64,000 nucleotides of DNA from Pseudothermotoga hypogea DSM 11164 = NBRC 106472 (GTDB taxonomy: Bacteria; Thermotogota; Thermotogae; Thermotogales; DSM-5069), in NCBI RefSeq assembly GCF_000816145.1, contig NZ_CP007141.1, forward strand, positions 930,001 through 994,000. Reading direction: 5' to 3'. The notes below the pieces were generated by a model. The model did no database searches, was not told the DNA's origin, and saw only the letters and a program-made list of their open reading frames with translations. This document shows, one piece after another, positions 31,854 through 44,767 of the stretch (positions are counted from its first letter, which is position 1; every line of letters begins with the position of its first letter). The position numbers and the translations under genes were made by a program.

Positions 31854-33116
31854 TCATTCTTCCTTGAGCAAGTCGTTGGCTTTCTTTTTCAACGTCTTCA
31901 AAGCGTCTTCAACTGTGGTGTTCGTGAGCATCACCGATTCGACAGCCTCTTTGATCAACTGCTCGAGCTGGGGACCTTTCGGATGCAACGGAACTATGTG
32001 CGACTTCGCCATGTCTTCGAGGAAAACTTTGGAGTACGGATAGTTCTTGAAGGTGTCTGATTCGACGAAGTCCTTCTTTGGTTGTATCAAACCGACCTCG
32101 ACCAAGTACTCTTCTGGATGGCTCAACATGTACGCAATGAACTTCCAGGCCCATTCTTGTTTTTCTTTGGAACTTTCAGCGTTCACCATGTAGTAGTGAC
32201 CGTAATAGTTGCACCTGACATCCTTGACGGCGTCCTCGAAGACTGGGAACGGAACGACCATCCACTCTCCGCTCTCGTAGAACTGCGGATTTTCCGCCTT
32301 GATCCTGAGTATCTGGTACAACCCAGACAGACACATGGTCACCGTGTTGTTGTCCTTGTTGAAATCCTTTCTTGCAGGAGTGTAGGTCGGTGAACCGAGG
32401 TTCTTCCCGTTCGGTCCCCACTCTTTGAAGAACCTCAGCACTTTGAGCCACGCTTCGTCGTTGATGATCGCAGTCTTTCCGTCTTCACTGAGCAACGCGC
32501 CACCGAGTTGTTCAACCATGGGCAACATGAAGGTCAGATAGTACGGATATCTGAAGTCGAAGCCCCTCCTCTTGAGGATCTGACCTTCCCTTATGACCAA
32601 CTTCTCACTGACCCGCACCATGTCTTCCCACGTCTTTGGATAGTCCTCCTCAGGATCCAGGCCGACTTCTCTGAAGTACTTCTTGTTGATGAACACGCAC
32701 CAGTTGGTGAGCTCCAACGGTAAGCCGTAGATCTTCCCCTTGTACGTTACGGCGTCCAAGGTGCCCTCGACGTACATCTGCCTGAGCTCGTCGTAACTCT
32801 TCAGTCCCAGCGCACTGAGGCTCACGGGTGCGACGCGTTCGTTCACTATGTAGGGATAAGCATCCTGGATCTCCATGTTGAAAATGTCGGGCCCTTTGCG
32901 TGCAGCGAAGGCTGTGAGAACGACTTCCCTGATCTTCGCTGAAGGATAAGTAACTCGTGTGATTTTCACATTTGGATACATCTTCTGAAACTCTTGAATG
33001 TAGCGTTCTTCCAGAGGCGTTCTGTTGGGATCTTCGTGCGTCCAAAAGACTATTTCGATCTGAGAGGCGCAAAGGATTGTGGAAACTATCAGCACAATGA
33101 GGATCAACCATCTCAC
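31854..33116 (-). CDS. Sugar-binding protein of ABC transporter B (family 1)
   Basis: 420 residues. Signal peptide (RWLILIVLIVSTILCA) then IEIVFWTHEDPNR, YIQEFQKMYPNVKI and YGLPLELTNWCVFINKKYF, the layout of family-1 sugar receptors. The GTG start follows AAGGGGGTGG; the longer in-frame start adds 20 residues ahead of the signal peptide. A TATAAT -10 box lies about 30 bp upstream on the minus strand without a clear -35. Ligand unknown. Confidence 0.9.
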   Translation of the reverse strand: MRWLILIVLIVSTILCASQIEIVFWTHEDPNRTPLEERYIQEFQKMYPNVKITRVTYPSAKIREVVLTAFAARKGPDIFNMEIQDAYPYIVNERVAPVSLSALGLKSYDELRQMYVEGTLDAVTYKGKIYGLPLELTNWCVFINKKYFREVGLDPEEDYPKTWEDMVRVSEKLVIREGQILKRRGFDFRYPYYLTFMLPMVEQLGGALLSEDGKTAIINDEAWLKVLRFFKEWGPNGKNLGSPTYTPARKDFNKDNNTVTMCLSGLYQILRIKAENPQFYESGEWMVVPFPVFEDAVKDVRCNYYGHYYMVNAESSKEKQEWAWKFIAYMLSHPEEYLVEVGLIQPKKDFVESDTFKNYPYSKVFLEDMAKSHIVPLHPKGPQLEQLIKEAVESVMLTNTTVEDALKTLKKKANDLLKEE

Positions 33117-33329
33117 AAAACCACCCCCTTGGTTTTCTGACGTGATAATTATACAACTTTCCTGTGCCAAATTCATTCTTCAATCGGACATCCTTTAAAG
33201 TTCTGCGCTAAGTGCTCACCAATTTGATATCTTAGCTTCTTATAAAGTTCTGATTCTCTGTGACAAGAATTCAATGGCCTTTGAACCTGCGCGTTCTTGA
33301 AACCTTTACCTTCACGACACAGAAAGTTG

Positions 33330-33358
33330 TTGACAGTTCTGCATGGGTGAGATACAAT
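33330..33358 (+). promoter_or_regulatory. Promoter of the arginine operon
   Basis: TTGACA (33330-33335) and TACAAT (33353-33358), spacer 17 bp. Transcription would start near 33365, about 26 bases before a short leader ORF and 220 bases before argG, so the transcript must pass the terminator at 33518-33555. Confidence 0.85.
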
Positions 33359-33391
33359 CGTTGAAAACAGTTCGAGCAGGTGAAGATCGTG

Positions 33392-33490
33392 ATGCGAAGT
33401 TGGCGAGGAACTGAATTGAAAGATTTCAACACAACGCTCAATATTCGTAGACGTGCTGGGTGCCGCCGGGTGCAGGTGGTGGGCACTTAG
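33392..33490 (+). CDS. Arg-rich leader peptide of the arg operon, 32 residues
   Basis: A short ORF too small for usual gene finders. AGGTGA lies 8 nt before the ATG, and an in-frame GTG directly precedes it. It encodes a peptide with seven Arg in 32 codons: Arg2, Arg5, then Arg-Arg-Arg at 19-21 (33446-33454) and Arg-Arg at 25-26 (33464-33469), in the stretch IRRRAGCRRV, and stops at TAG 33488-33490. The codons used are CGA, CGT, AGA, CGC and CGG. It sits between the operon promoter and a strong terminator, as do trp, his and leu leader peptides. Expected role: ribosomes pause at the Arg cluster when charged Arg-tRNA is scarce. Confidence 0.75.
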   Translation: MRSWRGTELKDFNTTLNIRRRAGCRRVQVVGT

Positions 33491-33555
33491 CACGCCGTTT
33501 TCTTTGCACAGCACCTGGGCGGCCATATCTCAAAGGATATGGCCGCCTTTTTTTT
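33452..33555 (+). promoter_or_regulatory. Transcription attenuator of the arginine operon
   Basis: Three alternative helices can be drawn. Protector: 33452-33464 with 33482-33494, 13 bp including two G-U pairs. Antiterminator: 33462-33473 with 33511-33523, 12 bp with one bulge. Terminator: 33518-33529 with 33536-33547, 12 perfect pairs, loop of six, then eight T (33548-33555). The antiterminator uses the left arm of the terminator. Its own left arm begins just downstream of the Arg triplet, about where a ribosome paused there would end. A ribosome reaching the stop codon would cover that arm and let the terminator form. The structures are read by eye, not calculated. Confidence 0.75.
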
Positions 33556-33584
33556 ACAAGAACAAAACTTAGGAGGTGTGAAGG

Positions 33585-34847
33585 ATGGAAGGCAAAAAGG
33601 TTGTGCTGGCGTACAGTGGAGGTCTGGACACCTCGGTCATACTCAAGTGGCTCTGTGAGAAAGGTTTCGAAGTGATCGCGTTCGTGGCGGATGTTGGGCA
33701 AAAGGACGATCTACAGTTCATCAAGGAGAAAGCTCTGAAGACCGGTGCAACGAAGGTTTACATCGAAGATCTCCGCAGAGAGTTCGTCACAGATTTCATC
33801 TTCGTCGCCCTCATGGCGAACGCGATCTACGAAGGCAGATACCTTCTCGGCACATCCCTGGCGAGGCCCCTCATAGCCAAAAAACAAGTCGAAATCGCGC
33901 ACAAAGAGAACGCCCAGTACGTGGCGCACGGTGCGACGGGAAAAGGGAACGACCAAGTCAGGTTCGAGCTGACTTACGCGGCTCTCGCTCCACATTTGAA
34001 GGTGATCTCACCCTGGAAAGATCCAGAATTTCTGGAGACTTTCAAGGGTAGAACAGACTTGATCAACTACGCCAAAAGCAAGGGCATACAGATCAAAGCG
34101 AGCGTTGAAAAACCTTACAGTGAGGATGAAAATCTCATGCACATCTCGCACGAAGCTGGCAAACTCGAAGATCCACTCTACACACCGGACGAATCTGTTT
34201 TCAGCAGGACCGTCTCACCGAAAGATGCTCCGGATGAAGAAACGTTGCTGCAGATCCATTTCAAAGACGGTATCCCAACGAAGGTCGTGAACCTGAAGGA
34301 TGGAACGAGCAAGGAAGATCCCCTGGAACTGTTCGAGTACCTCAACGAGATCGGTTCGAAGAACGGCGTCGGAAGAGTTGACATGGTGGAGAACAGGTTC
34401 ATAGGCATAAAGTCGCGAGGGATCTACGAAACACCCGGTGCGACGATTCTGTGGATCGCCCACAGGGATCTGGAAGGGATCGCGATGGACAAGGAAGTCA
34501 TGCACCTCAGAGATATGTTGTCTGTGAAGTTCTCAGAACTGATCTACAACGGTTTTTGGTACTCTCCCGAGATGGACTTTCTCTTGGCCGCCTTCAAGAA
34601 ATCGCAAGAGGCGATCGATGGTTATGTGATCGTGTCCATCTATAAGGGAAACGTGACTCCTGTGGCCAGATTTTCACCGACGTCTCTCTACGATCAGGCA
34701 CTCTCGAGCATGGACGTCGAAGGTGGATTCAACGCACTCGACTCGAAAGGTTTCATAAACATTCACTCCATCAGGTTGAAGGCACACAACTTGGTTTTGA
34801 AACAGAAGGATCCTTTCGCGTGGAGGAAGGGACTGACGCATGCCTAA
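33585..34847 (+). CDS. argG: Argininosuccinate synthase
   Basis: 420 residues. N-terminal ATP-pyrophosphatase loop A-Y-S-G-G-L-D-T-S at 8-16, then the family blocks GAT[12 protein letters not shown] near 120-132 and SRGIYETPG near 278. The enzyme joins citrulline and aspartate with ATP to give argininosuccinate in the cytoplasm. First structural gene after the attenuator; GGAGGTG precedes the ATG. argH overlaps its end by 8 bp. Confidence 0.97.
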
Positions 34848-36027
34848 GCTGTGGGAGAAAGGTTACACTCTCGATCCACTGATCGAACGATTCACCGTTG
34901 GTAAGGACTACCTCACGGACATGAAACTGATCAAGTACGACGTTATCGCCTCCATCGCACACGCAGAGATGCTCGCAAAGGTTGGCTATCTCTCAAGTGA
35001 AGAACTCGAGAAACTGAAAGCTGCCCTCAAGAAACTCTCAGAGTTGATCGACTCGAATCAGTTCTCCATCTCGCCAGACGAGGAAGACTGCCATACGGCG
35101 ATCGAGAACTTCTTGGTGCGAGAGGTTGGAGAGATAGGCAAGAAGATCCATATGGCCCGCTCGAGGAACGATCAGGTCTTGACGGCGCTACGGCTGCTTT
35201 ACAAAGACCAGCTGAAAAGGATCGAAAAACTGATCCAGGAACTGAAAAATCAACTCGTACAGTTCTCGAAGAGGTTCGGTCGAATAAAGTTTGCAGGTTT
35301 CACGCACACCAGAAAGGCGATGCCAACGAACTTCAGAACTTGGTCCATGGCTCTGTACGATGCGTTGGATGACGATCTAAGAATTCTGAGACTCGTCTTC
35401 GAACTGATCGATCGATCTCCACTCGGCACGGGCGCCGGTTACGGTGTACCGGCGAAAATAGACCGACGCTTCACGGCTGAAAGACTCGGCTTCAAGAGTA
35501 TTCAAAAGAATCCCATCCACGCCCAGCTGAGTCGAGGAAAGTACGAATTTCTGCTTCTGCACTCTCTGAGCCAGATCAGTTTCGATCTGAACAGGTTCGC
35601 AAGCGATATCATCTTCTTCTCCCTACCGGAAATTGGCTATCTGTCCTTGGCCAGGGAGCTGTGCACGGGTAGCTCGATCATGCCACAGAAGCTCAACCCG
35701 GATCCTTTGGAATTGGTGAGGGCATACCACAACAGGATCGTCGCCAAGCAGATGGAGTGCGCTACGATCACGAGCAACCTCATCACGGGATATCACAGAG
35801 ATCTTCAATTGCTCAAAGAGACTGTTCTGGAAGCCTTCGAGATCGTCGAACAACTTTTGCTCGTTATGAAACTGATCTTCGAGAAATTGGAAGTGAACGA
35901 GCAAAAATGTCGAACCAGTTTGACCAAGGAAGTCTTGGCGACTGAGAAAGTGTACGAATTGGTCGAGCGAGGAACACCATTCAGGGACGCCTACAGGATC
36001 GTTGCGGAAGAATTTGGGGGTGAATGA
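34840..36027 (+). CDS. argH: Argininosuccinate lyase
   Basis: 395 residues of the fumarase/aspartase superfamily. Signature [12 protein letters not shown] and ARSRNDQV ([15 protein letters not shown]) are intact. It splits argininosuccinate into arginine and fumarate. It is about 60 residues shorter than the common ~455-residue form, with a reduced C-terminal part; short versions are known in thermophiles. It overlaps argG by 8 bp and abuts argC. Confidence 0.96.
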
Positions 36028-37047
36028 ATGAAGATCAAGGTGGGAATCGTTGGCGTCACAGGTTACACGGGCTTGGAGCTCCTCAGGATCTTGAGCAACC
36101 ATCCACACGTCGAAGTGACGTATCTGTCTTCGAAGAGCTTTGTGGGAAAGAGTTTGAAAGATGTTTATCCTTTCGAACTGGACGAAACCGTCTTGCAAGA
36201 TATCGAAGTCGAAAGATTCGAAGATTGTGACGTTTTGTTCACGGCTTTGCCAGCGGGTGTCAGCTACGAACTCGTCAAGGATTTGAAGAACACGAAAGTC
36301 ATAGACTTGGGTGCAGACTTCAGGTTCGACGATCCTTCACTCTATGAAAAACATTACGGCAAGAAGCTTTCAAACTACGAAACGTGCGAGAGAGCGTATG
36401 GTCTGACCGAGTTGAACAGAGAGAAGATCAAGAACGCAAAGTTCGTTGGAAACCCAGGCTGTTACCCCACAGCGGTTCTCCTCGCCACGGCGCCACTTGC
36501 GAAGAACGATGCTCTTGGAACGAGCGAAATTTTCGTTGACGCGAAGTCCGGTGTTTCTGGTGCGGGGAGAAAACAAGACGAAAGTTACACATTCTGCGAG
36601 CTGAACGAAAATCTCAAACCTTACAACCTCGTCGATCACAGACACGTGCCGGAGATGGAGGAAAAACTTGAAGCTCTGTTCAAAAAGAAGATCAACGTCG
36701 TCTTCGCCCCGCACCTCATACCCATGAATCGAGGCATTCTGTGCACGATCTATCTCAAAACATCCCTGTCGATCGAAGAAATTCACCGAATGTATCGCGA
36801 GTTCTACCAGGATGAATTCTTCGTGCACGTACTTCCCATCGGAACCTATCCTACTACGAAATGGTGTCTCGGTACGAACCACGTGTTCATATCTCTCACG
36901 AAAGACGAGAGGACCGACACCTTGATCGTGATGTCCGCCCTCGACAATCTGATGAAAGGTGCTTCGGGACAGGCTGTTCAGAACATGAACGTGATGTTCT
37001 GTTTCGAAGAGCAGACGGCTCTGAAGTTCAAAGCTGTTTATCCGTGA
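36028..37047 (+). CDS. argC: N-acetyl-gamma-glutamyl-phosphate reductase
   Basis: 339 residues. NADP-binding G-V-T-G-Y-T-G-L-E at the N-terminus, catalytic Cys145 in NPGCYPTA, and the FxPHLIPMNRGI block near 230. It reduces N-acetylglutamyl phosphate to the semialdehyde, the third step from glutamate. The ATG begins directly at the end of the argH stop codon. Confidence 0.96.
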   Translation: MKIKVGIVGVTGYTGLELLRILSNHPHVEVTYLSSKSFVGKSLKDVYPFELDETVLQDIEVERFEDCDVLFTALPAGVSYELVKDLKNTKVIDLGADFRFDDPSLYEKHYGKKLSNYETCERAYGLTELNREKIKNAKFVGNPGCYPTAVLLATAPLAKNDALGTSEIFVDAKSGVSGAGRKQDESYTFCELNENLKPYNLVDHRHVPEMEEKLEALFKKKINVVFAPHLIPMNRGILCTIYLKTSLSIEEIHRMYREFYQDEFFVHVLPIGTYPTTKWCLGTNHVFISLTKDERTDTLIVMSALDNLMKGASGQAVQNMNVMFCFEEQTALKFKAVYP

Positions 37048-37059
37048 GGAGGTGAGTGG

Positions 37060-38249
37060 ATGGAATTACCCAAGGGTTTTCTGTTTTCCGGACTAAACTG
37101 TGGAATCAAAAGATACAGAAAAGATCTTGGAATCGCATATTCAATCTTCGATTGTGTCGCTACTGGTCTTTTCACAACAAACACCGTGAAAGCTGCTCCT
37201 ATCCTTTACAACATGAACTTGCTCGGTGAGAACTGCACGAAGATTCGAGCCGTGGTTGTGAACAGCAAGATCGCCAACAGTTGCACTGGTCAACAGGGCT
37301 TAGAGAATGCGTACCGCACGGCACAGAAGGCCGCACAGGTCCTGCGGATTGATCCAAGATCCGTTCTGCTCGCCTCGACCGGCATCATAGGCTTGCAACT
37401 GCCCATGGACAAGATCGAAGCGGGTATAGAAGAAGCTTCAAAGTGCTTGAACGAAGATCCGACACCCTTTGCCGAAGCGATCACGACGACGGACACGTTC
37501 ATCAAGATGGCTTCGAGGAAAGTCGAGATCGATGGAAAGAGAGTGCACATCCTCGGTATCGCCAAAGGTTCGGGAATGATACATCCAAACATGGCAACGG
37601 TGCTGAGTTTCTTATTCACCGACGCCAACATTTCTCCGAGCGCGCTGAAGAAGGCTCTCAAAGACTCTGTCGAAAAAAGCTACAACATGATCGACGTGGA
37701 TGGCGACACGAGCACGAACGACATGGTCCTGGCTCTCGCGAACGCTCAAGCCGGAAACGGAAGAATAGAGGAAGACAGTCCTGAGTTTTCGAAATTCTTT
37801 GAAAGCCTCCACGAGATCAACATTGAACTTGCGAAGATGATCGTCAAAGATGGTGAAGGGGCGACCAAATTGATCGAAGTCAGAGTGGTCCACGCACCAG
37901 ACGAGCTTTCAGCAAGAAAGATCGCAAGATCGATCGTGTCATCCAACTTGGTCAAAACCGCGATCCATGCGCAAGATCCAAACTGGGGCAGGATCGTCGC
38001 GGCCGCGGGTTGCTCGGGTGTGAACTTCGACCTCTCTCGAATGGACCTGCACATCGGCGATGGGAAAAACACGATCACAGTGCTGAAACACGGTCTTCCT
38101 TGCGAATTCAACGAAGAAGAAGCGACCACGATCCTTTCAGCGAGCGAAATCTTTCTGACGGTGGACCTGAACGATGGTCTTCACAGCGCGACGGCGTGGG
38201 GTTGCGATCTGAGTGAAGAGTACATCAAGAAGAACGGGAGGTACAAAGC

Positions 38250-38268
<19 letters not shown>
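37060..38268 (+). CDS. argJ: Ornithine acetyltransferase / N-acetylglutamate synthase
   Basis: 402 residues. The self-cleavage site is in KGSGMIHPNMATVLSF, with Thr180 as the nucleophile that becomes the first residue of the beta chain. ArgJ moves acetyl from N-acetylornithine to glutamate, making the pathway cyclic; in thermophiles it can also use acetyl-CoA. No argA or argE is seen in the operon, which fits a bifunctional enzyme. Start behind GGAGGTGAG. Confidence 0.96.
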
Positions 38269-41448
<3,180 letters not shown>

Positions 41449-41452
41449 GAAC

Positions 41453-44400
41453 ATGCCAAAACGGCAAGACATCAAGAAGATCCTGGTCATAGGTTCTGGT
41501 CCCATAACGATCGGGCAAGCGGCGGAGTTCGATTATTCAGGCACACAGGCGCTCAAGGCGTTGAAATCGCTCGGTTATCATGTGATCGTTGTGAACTCCA
41601 ATTCCGCGACGATAATGACAGATCCACAGTTCTCCGACGCCGTCTACATAGAGCCTCTCGAAGCAACGTACTTAGAAAGAATTATTGCACGTGAAAGACC
41701 AGACGCGATACTGTGTACAATGGGTGGTCAGACTGCTCTGAACTTGGCTGTGGAACTTTACAAGAAAGGTATTCTTGAAAAATACAACGTTCAACTCATA
41801 GGAGCGAACGTGGAGACTATAGAGAAGGCCGAAGACCGTGAGCTCTTCAAGAAAGCCATGCAAGAAGCTGGTTTACAAGTTCTCAGCAGCCAAACTGTTT
41901 CGAGAGTGGACGATGCCCTACGAGTCGCACGCGAGTTGGGCTATCCCGTCGTTGTCAGGCCCAGCTTCACGCTCGGTGGAAGTGGCGGAGGAATAGCGTA
42001 CAACGAGGATGAACTCATCTCGATCGTGTCGAGGGGCTTGATCGAAAGCCCAGCCAAGACGGTACTCGTTGAAGAATCAGTCATAGGATGGAAAGAGTAC
42101 GAGCTCGAAGTGATGAGAGACTGTACGGGGAACTTCATAGTCGTCTGTTCGATAGAGAACTTCGATCCAATGGGGATTCACACGGGTGATTCGATCACCG
42201 TCGCCCCCGCTCAGACGCTCACCGACAGAGAATACCAAGCGATGAGGGATGCCGCCCTGAAAGCCATGGCCGCCATCAAGATGGAGACTGGTGGCTGCAA
42301 CATTCAGTTCGCCGTCAACCCACAGGATGGCAGGATGGTGGTGATCGAGATAAATCCCAGGGTCTCAAGATCATCAGCGCTCGCTTCGAAGGCTACAGGT
42401 TATCCCATCGCGAAGGTTGCGGCGATGTTGGCGGTCGGTTTGAGGCTCGACGAGATAGCGAACTCGATCACTCAGAAAACTTCTGCCGCGTTCGAACCAT
42501 CGATCGACTACGTGGTGGTCAAGATGCCGAGGTTCCAGTTGGAGAAATTCCCTGGCTGTGACCCAAGGCTCGGCACACAGATGAAATCGGTCGGCGAAGT
42601 GATGGCGATAGGTAGAACCTTCAAAGAGGCGCTGGGTAAAGCTCTAAGATCGCTCGAATTGGACAAGACACCCAAACTCGATCTGAACCACATCAAAGAG
42701 TACCTCGCCAATCCCACCCCTGAAAGGATCTCGTACATCTTCGCTGCCTTCAGACACGGCTTCTCCGTTGAAGAGGTACATAGACTCACGAAGATAAACG
42801 AGTGGTTCTTGGAAGAGATCAAGTCCATCATGGACTTCGAAAACCAGATCAAGGAGAGAGGGCTCAACGATCCGAACATCTTGAGGAAAGCGAAAGAGTG
42901 GGGATTTTCGGACAGAGAACTTTCGGAAATGTTGCAAATCTCTGAGAAAGATGTGCGAAGGATCAGAAAGTCTTTCAGCATAAAACCCATCTTCAAGATG
43001 GTCGACACCTGCGCGGCGGAGTTCGAGGCGGCCACACCGTACTTCTATTCGACTTACAACGGTGTCGAGAACGAGGCGATCCCATCGAACAAAAAGAAGA
43101 TCGTGGTGTTGGGTTCAGGTCCCAACAGAATTGGTCAGGGAATAGAGTTCGACTATGCCAACGTCCACGCCGTTTGGGCGTTTCAAGAGGAAGGTTATGA
43201 AGTCATCATGATCAATTCCAACCCCGAGACTGTCTCCACAGACTACGACACCTCCGACAGACTCTACTTCGAGCCTCTCACGGTCGAAGATATCCTCGAG
43301 ATCATCGAGAGCGAAAAACCTGAAGGCGTCGTGGTCTCTTTTGGAGGACAGACACCTTTGAAGCTATCGAAGGAGCTCGCAGAGGCGGGTGTGAAGATAC
43401 TCGGGACGGATTTCGAACAAATCGATATCGCTGAAGACAGGGCTCGGTTCGCAACATTCCTGAAAAAGTTGAAACTGAAAATCCCAGACTTCAAGATCGT
43501 CACAAGTGTCGAAGAGGCTCTCAGAGTCGTTGACGAACTCGGATTTCCTGTTCTTGTGAGACCGAGCTACGTGCTGGGTGGTAGGGCGATGGCCGTGGTC
43601 GAATCGAAGAAAGACTTGGTCGAGTACGTTTCGCAGGCTGCACTGGTTTCGCAGGGACATCCACTCGTTCTGGACAAGTTCTTGGAAGACGCCATCGAAT
43701 TGGACGTTGATCTGGTCTGCGATGGTGAAAGCGTCTGGATCGCTGGTTTGATGGAACAGATAGAAGAAGCTGGTATACATTCGGGAGATTCCGCATGCGT
43801 TCTACCGCCGGTGAGTCTTTCTGACAATCTGATCGATCGCATCGAAGATGTCGTTTTCAAACTGGTGAAGGGCATGAAGATCGTCGGACCAGCAAACGTT
43901 CAGCTTGCCATAAAGGACGAAGAGATCTACGTCATCGAGTTGAACCCGAGAGTTTCGAGAACTTTTCCCTTCGTGAGCAAGGCGATAGGAATAGCTGTAG
44001 CGGAGATCGCCGCGAAGGTGCTGATCGGCGAGAAACTGATCGATCTTCTAAAACCCTATTTCCCCTACAAGACGAGGAAGGTTTTTTCCAAAGATTTATC
44101 CGATTTTCGAGGCGGATTGATACCGACCCCCTGGCCCCCGTACTATTCGGTCAAGGAAGTGGTGATACCGTTCCACAAATTTTTGAACGTCGACACGTTG
44201 CTTGGACCAGAGATGCGTTCCACGGGTGAGGTCATGGGTATCGGTGAGACGTTTGCCGAGGCATTTGGCAAGGCACAACTGGCCGCGGATAACTATTTCC
44301 CAACTAAAGGTGTGCTCGTCAGCGTCAGAGACAGAGACAAACGAGAGATCATCCCGTTGGTCTCTTACCTGTACGATTTAGGGTTCGAGATCTACGCCAC

Positions 44401-44767
44401 GAACGGTACTGCGAAATCTCTCAGGGCTGCGGGTATTCCAGCGATCGTCGTGCCCAAGGTTGGTGAGGGTAGGCCAGACGTCGTCGATCTGATCGATCAA
44501 CACAAGGTGGATCTTGTCGTCATCACGCAATCCAACGAGAGGACGGATGAAATTCACCAGATCGATCCTGAAGCCAAGGCACCGTTGAGTTTCGACAGTC
44601 GAAGGACCGTTGGGTACAAGATCAGGACGGGGGCGCTCAGAAACAGAATACCGTGCATCACGACGATCGAGGCGTTCAGGGCGATGGTTTCAGCCGTGAG
44701 ACAGTCACGGTTGAGTGACCTTACTGTCCGAAGTCTGAAAGAGCTGCACACATTGAATTTCTACTAA
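41453..44767 (+). CDS. carB: Carbamoyl-phosphate synthase large subunit
   Basis: 1104 residues with two homologous ATP-grasp halves ([20 protein letters not shown] near 15 and [20 protein letters not shown] near 554), an oligomerisation segment between, and a C-terminal MGS-like allosteric domain from about residue 945. It makes carbamoyl phosphate from bicarbonate, ammonia and two ATP, feeding both citrulline and pyrimidines. Last gene of the operon; argF is not here. No good terminator follows, only a weak hairpin with T6 near 44860-44900. Confidence 0.97.

Follow-up and report, generated by a model that had tools for sequence, protein, structure and literature searches.

Arginine biosynthesis is the textbook case of control by the repressor ArgR. 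Neither of the two ArgR domains, PF01316 (DNA-binding) and PF02863 (C-terminal), was found in the genome of Pseudothermotoga hypogea (G000), Thermotoga maritima being positive among the controls, and the question raised by its arginine operon is what sets the expression of the latter. The window analysed is a stretch of 64,000 nucleotides (G000:C1:930001-994000; the genome is a single contig of 2,165,416 bases), and all positions refer to it unless otherwise mentioned. An Arg-rich leader peptide and a switchable terminator had been recognized at 33330-33584 in the initial annotation, with the claim of a leader-peptide attenuation. This claim is supported by conserved codons, spacing, mutually exclusive helices and a family of leaders with other specificities. 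The region is very probably a ribosome-mediated transcription attenuator, by which charged tRNA-Arg sets the expression of argGHCJBD-carAB.

Parts of the argG leader

Each of the elements previously described in 33330-33584 was found when the region was read base by base: promoter, 32-codon ORF, three helices and terminator are confirmed to the base. The sigma-70-type promoter (33330-33358, plus strand, as are all the following elements of the leader and operon) is made of TTGACA (33330-33335), a spacer of 17 nt and TACAAT (33353-33358), i.e., 11 of 12 consensus positions; G001 has identical hexamers. A Shine-Dalgarno (SD)-like AGGTGA (33378-33383), also read base by base, is followed by the leader ORF of 32 codons (33392-33490, ATG at 33392 and TAG at 33488-33490), which encodes MRSWRGTELKDFNTTLNIRRRAGCRRVQVVGT and has equivalents in eight further genomes. 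The peptide MRSWRGTELKDFNTTLNIRRRAGCRRVQVVGT contains 7 Arg, 5 of them within residues 19-26. The putative sensor codons, Arg19-Arg21 (CGT AGA CGT, 33446-33454), are localized 16 nt ahead of the antiterminator core.

Three helices can be drawn in the leader RNA. Helix A, the anti-antiterminator, pairs 33452-33464 with 33482-33494 (13 bp, two G-U); helix B, the antiterminator, pairs 33462-33473 with 33511-33523 (12 bp, one bulge); the intrinsic terminator (33518-33555) has a 12-bp stem (33518-33529 with 33536-33547) followed by eight T (33548-33555). The terminator scan scored the latter with 14 pairs and a 4-nt loop. Downstream, an AGGAGG read as the Shine-Dalgarno sequence of argG is found at 33571-33576, and argG itself, the first gene of the operon, at 33585-34847 (argininosuccinate synthase; NF001770, E 6e-167, and TIGR00032). 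The remainder of the operon, i.e., argH, argC, argJ, argB, argD, carA and carB, identified by NCBIfam matches, extends over 34840-44767. The other flank of the leader region is occupied by a divergent ABC-transporter gene (31854-33176, minus strand).

Conservation of the leader and position of the ribosome

An Arg-rich ORF, taken alone in one genome, is weak evidence. Among the small ORFs of the window (20-45 aa, all frames), 20 of 500 contain RRR and 11 of 500 have at least 5 Arg per 8 residues; such ORFs are frequent because GC-rich genes read off-frame yield Arg. Arg-richness was thus dropped as stand-alone evidence after this window-wide control. The fold of the leader RNA is more stable than dinucleotide shuffles (z = -3.75), a value to which the strong terminator contributes by itself. 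Judged on sequence comparison, it is conservation, not Arg-richness, that exceeds chance for the argG leader.

Nine argG leaders were compared, from three Thermotogota families (f1, f6 and f11): the window (G000), G001, G006, G007, G008, G009 and G010, all of the window's family, G047 (f6) and G069 (f11). The comparison of related genomes for the ORF and its Arg cluster, suggested in the initial annotation, finds both kept in these nine leaders, together with the spacing and the helices. Two or three Arg codons occupy the sensor place in 9/9 leaders, with Q-R-K-R (RKR) in G009. The distance from the sensor Arg codons to the antiterminator arm or core is 13-19 nt, and the stop codon of the leader ORF lies 25-30 nt ahead of the GGCCATATC stem. 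A purine-rich SD-like site precedes the start codon in each of the other argG leaders too, and all nine have an intrinsic terminator between leader ORF and argG. The N-terminal halves of the peptides are mostly dissimilar, while frame and stop position are conserved; the C-termini are IRRRAGCRRVQVVGT (window and G001), IRRTKGRWVQEGT, VRRTRCRWVLRGT, VRRTKCRWVLNGA, IQRKRTICRGVFART, IRRRTRCRWVMNGA, IRRRLKGRWVPIGT and IRRRPKRRWVISSA. It must be noted that the contig of G003 begins within argG, and that no argG match was found in G002 or G004.

The covariation alignment holds only eight related sequences, and some of its measures were matched by shuffles. In helix A, 87.5% of cells are paired vs. 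37-45% with slid partners, and 4 pairs are changed on both sides; in helix B, 94% of cells are paired vs. 31-46%, and 3 pairs are changed on both sides. These modest counts support helices A and B, in a supportive rather than conclusive manner. The full leader RNA folds as helix A (or an equivalent hairpin) plus terminator in 8/8 leaders of this first alignment, and the RNA lying between a ribosome halted at the Arg run and the end of the 5' terminator arm takes the antiterminator fold, also in 8/8 leaders. In folding models, the antiterminator thus excludes the terminator and competes with an upstream helix which is weak in some genomes: in the free truncated transcript the antiterminator prevails in G008, G047 and G069, i.e., helix A is not equally strong everywhere. 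Termination in these three genomes must therefore need ribosome movement and timing.

The position of the ribosome was modelled by imposing its footprint codon by codon, and helix B formation was scored as a probability, both at 37 and at 70 °C. The footprint was taken to extend 11 nt downstream of the first base in the A site; a value of 13 nt moves the switch about one codon earlier. This scoring of helix B itself replaced a version of the model in which all upstream pairings of the GGCC arm were accepted and which gave no information. In the window the probability, near 0 upstream of the Arg run, rises to 0.8 at Arg19 and 1.0 at Arg20, then is 0 from Arg21 until the last codons. Across the nine genomes, the antiterminator probability is 0.8-1.0 when the A site holds the first Arg codon of the cluster (0.9 at both Q15 and R16 in G009) and 0.4-1.0 when it holds the second one; no more than two codons later it has dropped to about 0. 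The results at 70 °C are similar, with small shifts. The Arg codons are therefore the last positions leaving the antiterminator arm free.

According to this footprint model, the ribosome hides the 5' antiterminator arm from the decoding of Arg21 up to about that of Gly31, and the arm becomes accessible again in most genomes once the stop codon is reached (0.9 in the window). That a ribosome at the TAG covers the antiterminator, as proposed in the initial annotation, is contradicted by the model. Since the arm is free at the stop codon, termination in the presence of arginine must come from the passage of the ribosome plus helix A formed after its release.

The following sequence of events is proposed. 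When arginyl-tRNA is scarce, the ribosome translating the leader would wait with Arg19 or Arg20 in the A site. It would mask the 5' arm of helix A and leave 33462-33473 free to pair with 33511-33523; the GGCGGC at the base of the terminator stem would be sequestered and RNA polymerase would enter argG. When arginine is abundant, the ribosome would pass over 33462-33473 during the synthesis of the terminator, or depart and let helix A form; by either route the terminator would fold and transcription would end near 33555. This reading is based on the elements present and conserved, on the distance between codons and helices, and on the helices excluding each other in folding models. The leader has what is expected of an attenuator: an ORF with a codon run and an SD sequence, an intrinsic terminator, exclusive helices and, in the folding model, a stall that favours the antiterminator. 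Translation of the leader ORF, the sense in which the operon responds and the sensing of charged tRNA, not of another ligand, are inferred.

A family of leaders across Thermotogota

A covariance model built from the argG leaders (R1) was searched against 103 Thermotogota genomes. It gives 29 hits at E 4e-5 or better, each of which proved on reading to be a leader ORF then a terminator. They precede argG (9), argJ (9, in family f9, with NDRRRPCSRW, NNRRRQDSRW and similar leaders), dapF (3, NKKYVK), lysC (NKKQVK), hisZ (IHHHN), trpB2 (QWWWY), a permease gene (NRKHDK) and transporter genes (NRRI and ERRHHR leaders). Two hits precede amidohydrolase genes, with a leader VVYIVLIL that has no obvious match to the gene; these loci (L056 in G064 and L058 in G052) have the leader QEVVYIVLILPAGG and the family terminator. 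Weaker hits include NRKHHVK and ENRKHVK leaders ahead of amino-acid binding proteins, LVHHHV ahead of hisZ-hisG in the window's genome and of hisZ in its genus, and WWW and WW leaders ahead of trpB2 and trpE. Hits at E of about 5e-5 and above also include ordinary terminators (L060, L063, L071, L083 and L084), and weak hits were counted as members only after the leader was read. Genes were named with NCBIfam and Pfam, and hisZ-hisG of the window's genome by reading the two ORFs.

The sensor codons fit the downstream gene: RRR for argJ (nine genomes), KK for dapF and lysC, HHH for hisZ, WWW for trpB2 and WW for trpE, the mixed RKH(H) being found before an amino-acid ABC transporter or a permease. 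A second covariance model (R2), built only from Lys, mixed-basic and His leaders, recovers the argG leaders of G008, G009 and G010 and the argJ leaders of f9; the link between argG and the other specificities therefore holds in both directions. Further leaders detected by R2 are HHHH ones ahead of hisZ in Thermotoga-type genomes and RHHSR ones ahead of f9 amino-acid transporters. When 80 argG loci, mostly outside the phylum, were searched with a covariance model, no leader other than those already known appeared. In the leaders measured, 10-22 nt separate the first sensor codon from the start of helix B, except for one Trp leader in which the wrong hairpin was scored. The argG leader is thus a member of a Thermotogota-wide family whose sensor codons vary with the pathway controlled.

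Several members deserve a description of their own. Outside the window, the same genome carries at G000:C1:219863-219990 (L065) a His leader attenuator, MSVFDRKLETLNLVHHHVFDPVAFPPGVT, before hisZ-hisG; similar leaders are present in G001, G002, G003 and G004, and among these G002 and G004, near-complete genomes of the window's genus, retain the his leader although argG was not matched. Five f2 loci (L206, L207, L208, L211 and L212) have His-rich leaders, e.g., MRIQRRIIKMFASIHHHHRFGPAVSPPGVWR, with an antiterminator and terminator of the family type before a hisZ-like gene; their genomes retain ArgR for arginine. At L215 (G021) a gene resembling a TnpB-type transposase, in place of hisZ, comes after the his leader attenuator, and at L214 (G017) the downstream sequence is the same up to the contig end, an apparent insertion between leader and operon. 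In f5, the leaders NRKHHVK, NRKHVK, NKKHHVK and NERRHHR (L061, L076, L082, L059, L088 and L075) precede amino-acid or peptide transporters; by their codons, these mixed Arg-Lys-His leaders look like sensors of three basic amino acids at once. In f9, L216 and L217 have a leader NNQPEPK and a family-type terminator before a gene reading as citrate synthase, and this leader is possibly a glutamate-family sensor. A WWW leader is found ahead of a 4Fe-4S protein gene at L073 (G047).

Two RNA motifs are shared by the family. The antiterminator motif CCGGTGG is read in the frame C-R-W or S-R-W in Arg leaders and P-G-G in Lys leaders; being kept though read in different frames, it is therefore conserved as RNA. 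An exact-motif search for the antiterminator returned mainly Lys-type leaders. The terminator stem, GGCCATATC/GATATGGCC, is identical in the nine genomes with an argG leader. In the first genome set, GGCCATATC-N-GATATGGCC has a single copy per genome in all eight genomes with the leader and is absent from the 53 others. The relaxed form GGCYAYATC-N-GATRTRGCC has 30 sites in 24 of 103 genomes, e.g., 33521-33544 in the window, and 30/30 are within leader attenuators. The stem GGC[CT]A[CT]ATC is thus kept across families and amino-acid specificities. Its GGCC part is explained by double pairing, in the terminator and in the antiterminator; its upper part, CATATC/CACATC, is not. A shared cassette by common descent is the simplest reading. 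It is conceivable, though rather unlikely, that a homologous phylum-wide cassette (CCGGTGG ... CCACCGG plus the GGCYAYATC hairpin) was copied to Arg, Lys, His, Trp and mixed-basic genes through a change of sensor codons, with a stem recognized in a sequence-specific manner by a factor or by RNA polymerase. If true, this recognition would put the cassette attenuators in a class of their own.

Alternative explanations and known systems

Three other explanations of the argG leader were considered. The leader could be an arrest peptide, the nascent chain binding arginine or ornithine in the tunnel and stalling as in SpeFL or TnaC. Residues flanking the Arg run are indeed conserved in argG leaders (NIRRRxxxCRWVxxGT, then stop), the IRRT core of some of them resembles the HIRRT of Salmonella ORF34/SpeFL (PMC6386406), and a ribosome parked at the stop codon would likewise free the antiterminator in the footprint model. 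However, the conserved C-terminus overlaps helices A and B, whose motif has a different reading frame in Lys leaders, and a stall induced by the end product would activate biosynthesis when it is not needed. Moreover, depending on the pathway, Lys, His or Trp takes the place of the sensor residue, and its distance from helix B stays similar; this swap is expected if codons are sensed, but not from a ligand pocket. An arrest peptide is thus very improbable.

The conservation of the terminator stem suggests another possibility, namely that the GGCCATATC-N-GATATGGCC dyad is the DNA operator of an unknown repressor, terminator and leader ORF being secondary: it forms a perfect palindrome that does not vary among the nine genomes and is present once per leader genome of the window's family. 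Yet a T run follows the dyad and an antiterminator lies just upstream in the leaders examined, and the 30 of 30 palindrome sites in 103 genomes fall in leader attenuators. The stem of G060 and G085, GGCTGCATC/GATGTGGCC, has U-G and G-U pairs that keep the RNA hairpin but break the DNA palindrome. The probability of an operator is extremely low. The same extremely low probability is given to a constitutive partial terminator behind a chance ORF, with no translational regulation: the frequency of Arg-rich small ORFs in the window is in its favour, but frame, stop codon, Arg codons and spacing are conserved in nine genomes, the genome has no detected ArgR, and sister leaders carry matching codons. 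Ribosome-mediated attenuation remains by far the preferred reading.

ArgR, to which the initial annotation attributed the known arginine control in Thermotoga, is indeed the situation of Thermotoga, but neither of its domains was detected in the window's genome or in the other leader genomes screened. PF01316 and PF02863 co-occur in 8 of 61 genomes; these eight all belong to the Thermotoga-type family f2 and have argG without the leader; neither domain was found in the eight leader genomes of this set (G069 is outside the set). Thus, among the relatives searched, the two domains of the Thermotoga ArgR accompany a leaderless argG. This protein exerts an arginine control on an orthologous argG, as the leader would do, but as a DNA-binding repressor. 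Several genomes have argG with neither leader nor ArgR, e.g., G031, G037, G049, G053, G055 and G059; leader and ArgR therefore do not cover all the arg control of the phylum. At the RNA level, T-boxes were given as arginine control in a 2005 survey of Actinobacteria (PMC1262725). The arginine T-box of Firmicutes also senses tRNA-Arg charging in cis and switches a terminator; however, the tRNA binds the RNA directly, without leader ORF, whereas the argG leader has an ORF and no T-box match. The window has no Rfam match, T-box included, at the gathering threshold, and a search of eight leader loci that admitted E values up to 1 returned nothing relevant; no curated Rfam family matches the leader RNA with the same thresholds.

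The classical trp, his, leu, ilv, thr and phe attenuators of Proteobacteria and Actinobacteria likewise have a short ORF with a run of end-product codons ahead of the operon, and mutually exclusive anti-antiterminator, antiterminator and intrinsic terminator; patterns in several of their pairings are also conserved over long distances (PMC1262725). The argG leader differs from them by (i) its arginine specificity; (ii) its presence in Thermotogota; (iii) a stop-codon ribosome that does not cover the antiterminator arm. Moreover, the Thermotogota leaders reuse a shared, partly invariant terminator with different sensor codons. In Salmonella, the 34-codon leader orf34 of speF (SpeFL) senses arginine with two consecutive Arg codons, by ribosome pausing and alternative RNA structures (PMC6386406). 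This system involves Rho-dependent termination, RNase G, the masking of a ribosome site and a polyamine gene, whereas the argG leader has an intrinsic terminator and precedes arginine biosynthesis genes.

Text searches of the literature retrieved no case of an arg operon attenuated through a leader peptide and no such attenuation in Thermotogota, though some attenuators of this phylum, e.g., of his or trp, may have been predicted in Lopatovskaya, Seliverstov and Lyubetsky 2010 (Mol Biol 44:128-139). The statement that no attenuation of an arg operon was known in this phylum thus stands as far as these searches go; attenuation there exceeds arginine, including the his leader of Thermotoga-type genomes. 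As far as found, the kind of regulation is known, i.e., ribosome-mediated attenuation, and what is new is its arginine specificity for an arg operon and a phylum-wide family absent from Rfam.

In this lineage of a thermophilic, deep-branching phylum, where ArgR is not detectable, ribosome-mediated attenuation seems to take its place. Genes for lysine, histidine and tryptophan, and for the uptake of basic amino acids, seemingly make use of the cassette with other sensor codons. If true, direct predictions would follow for many operons, as well as a natural experiment on the change of attenuator specificity and candidates for new Rfam families.
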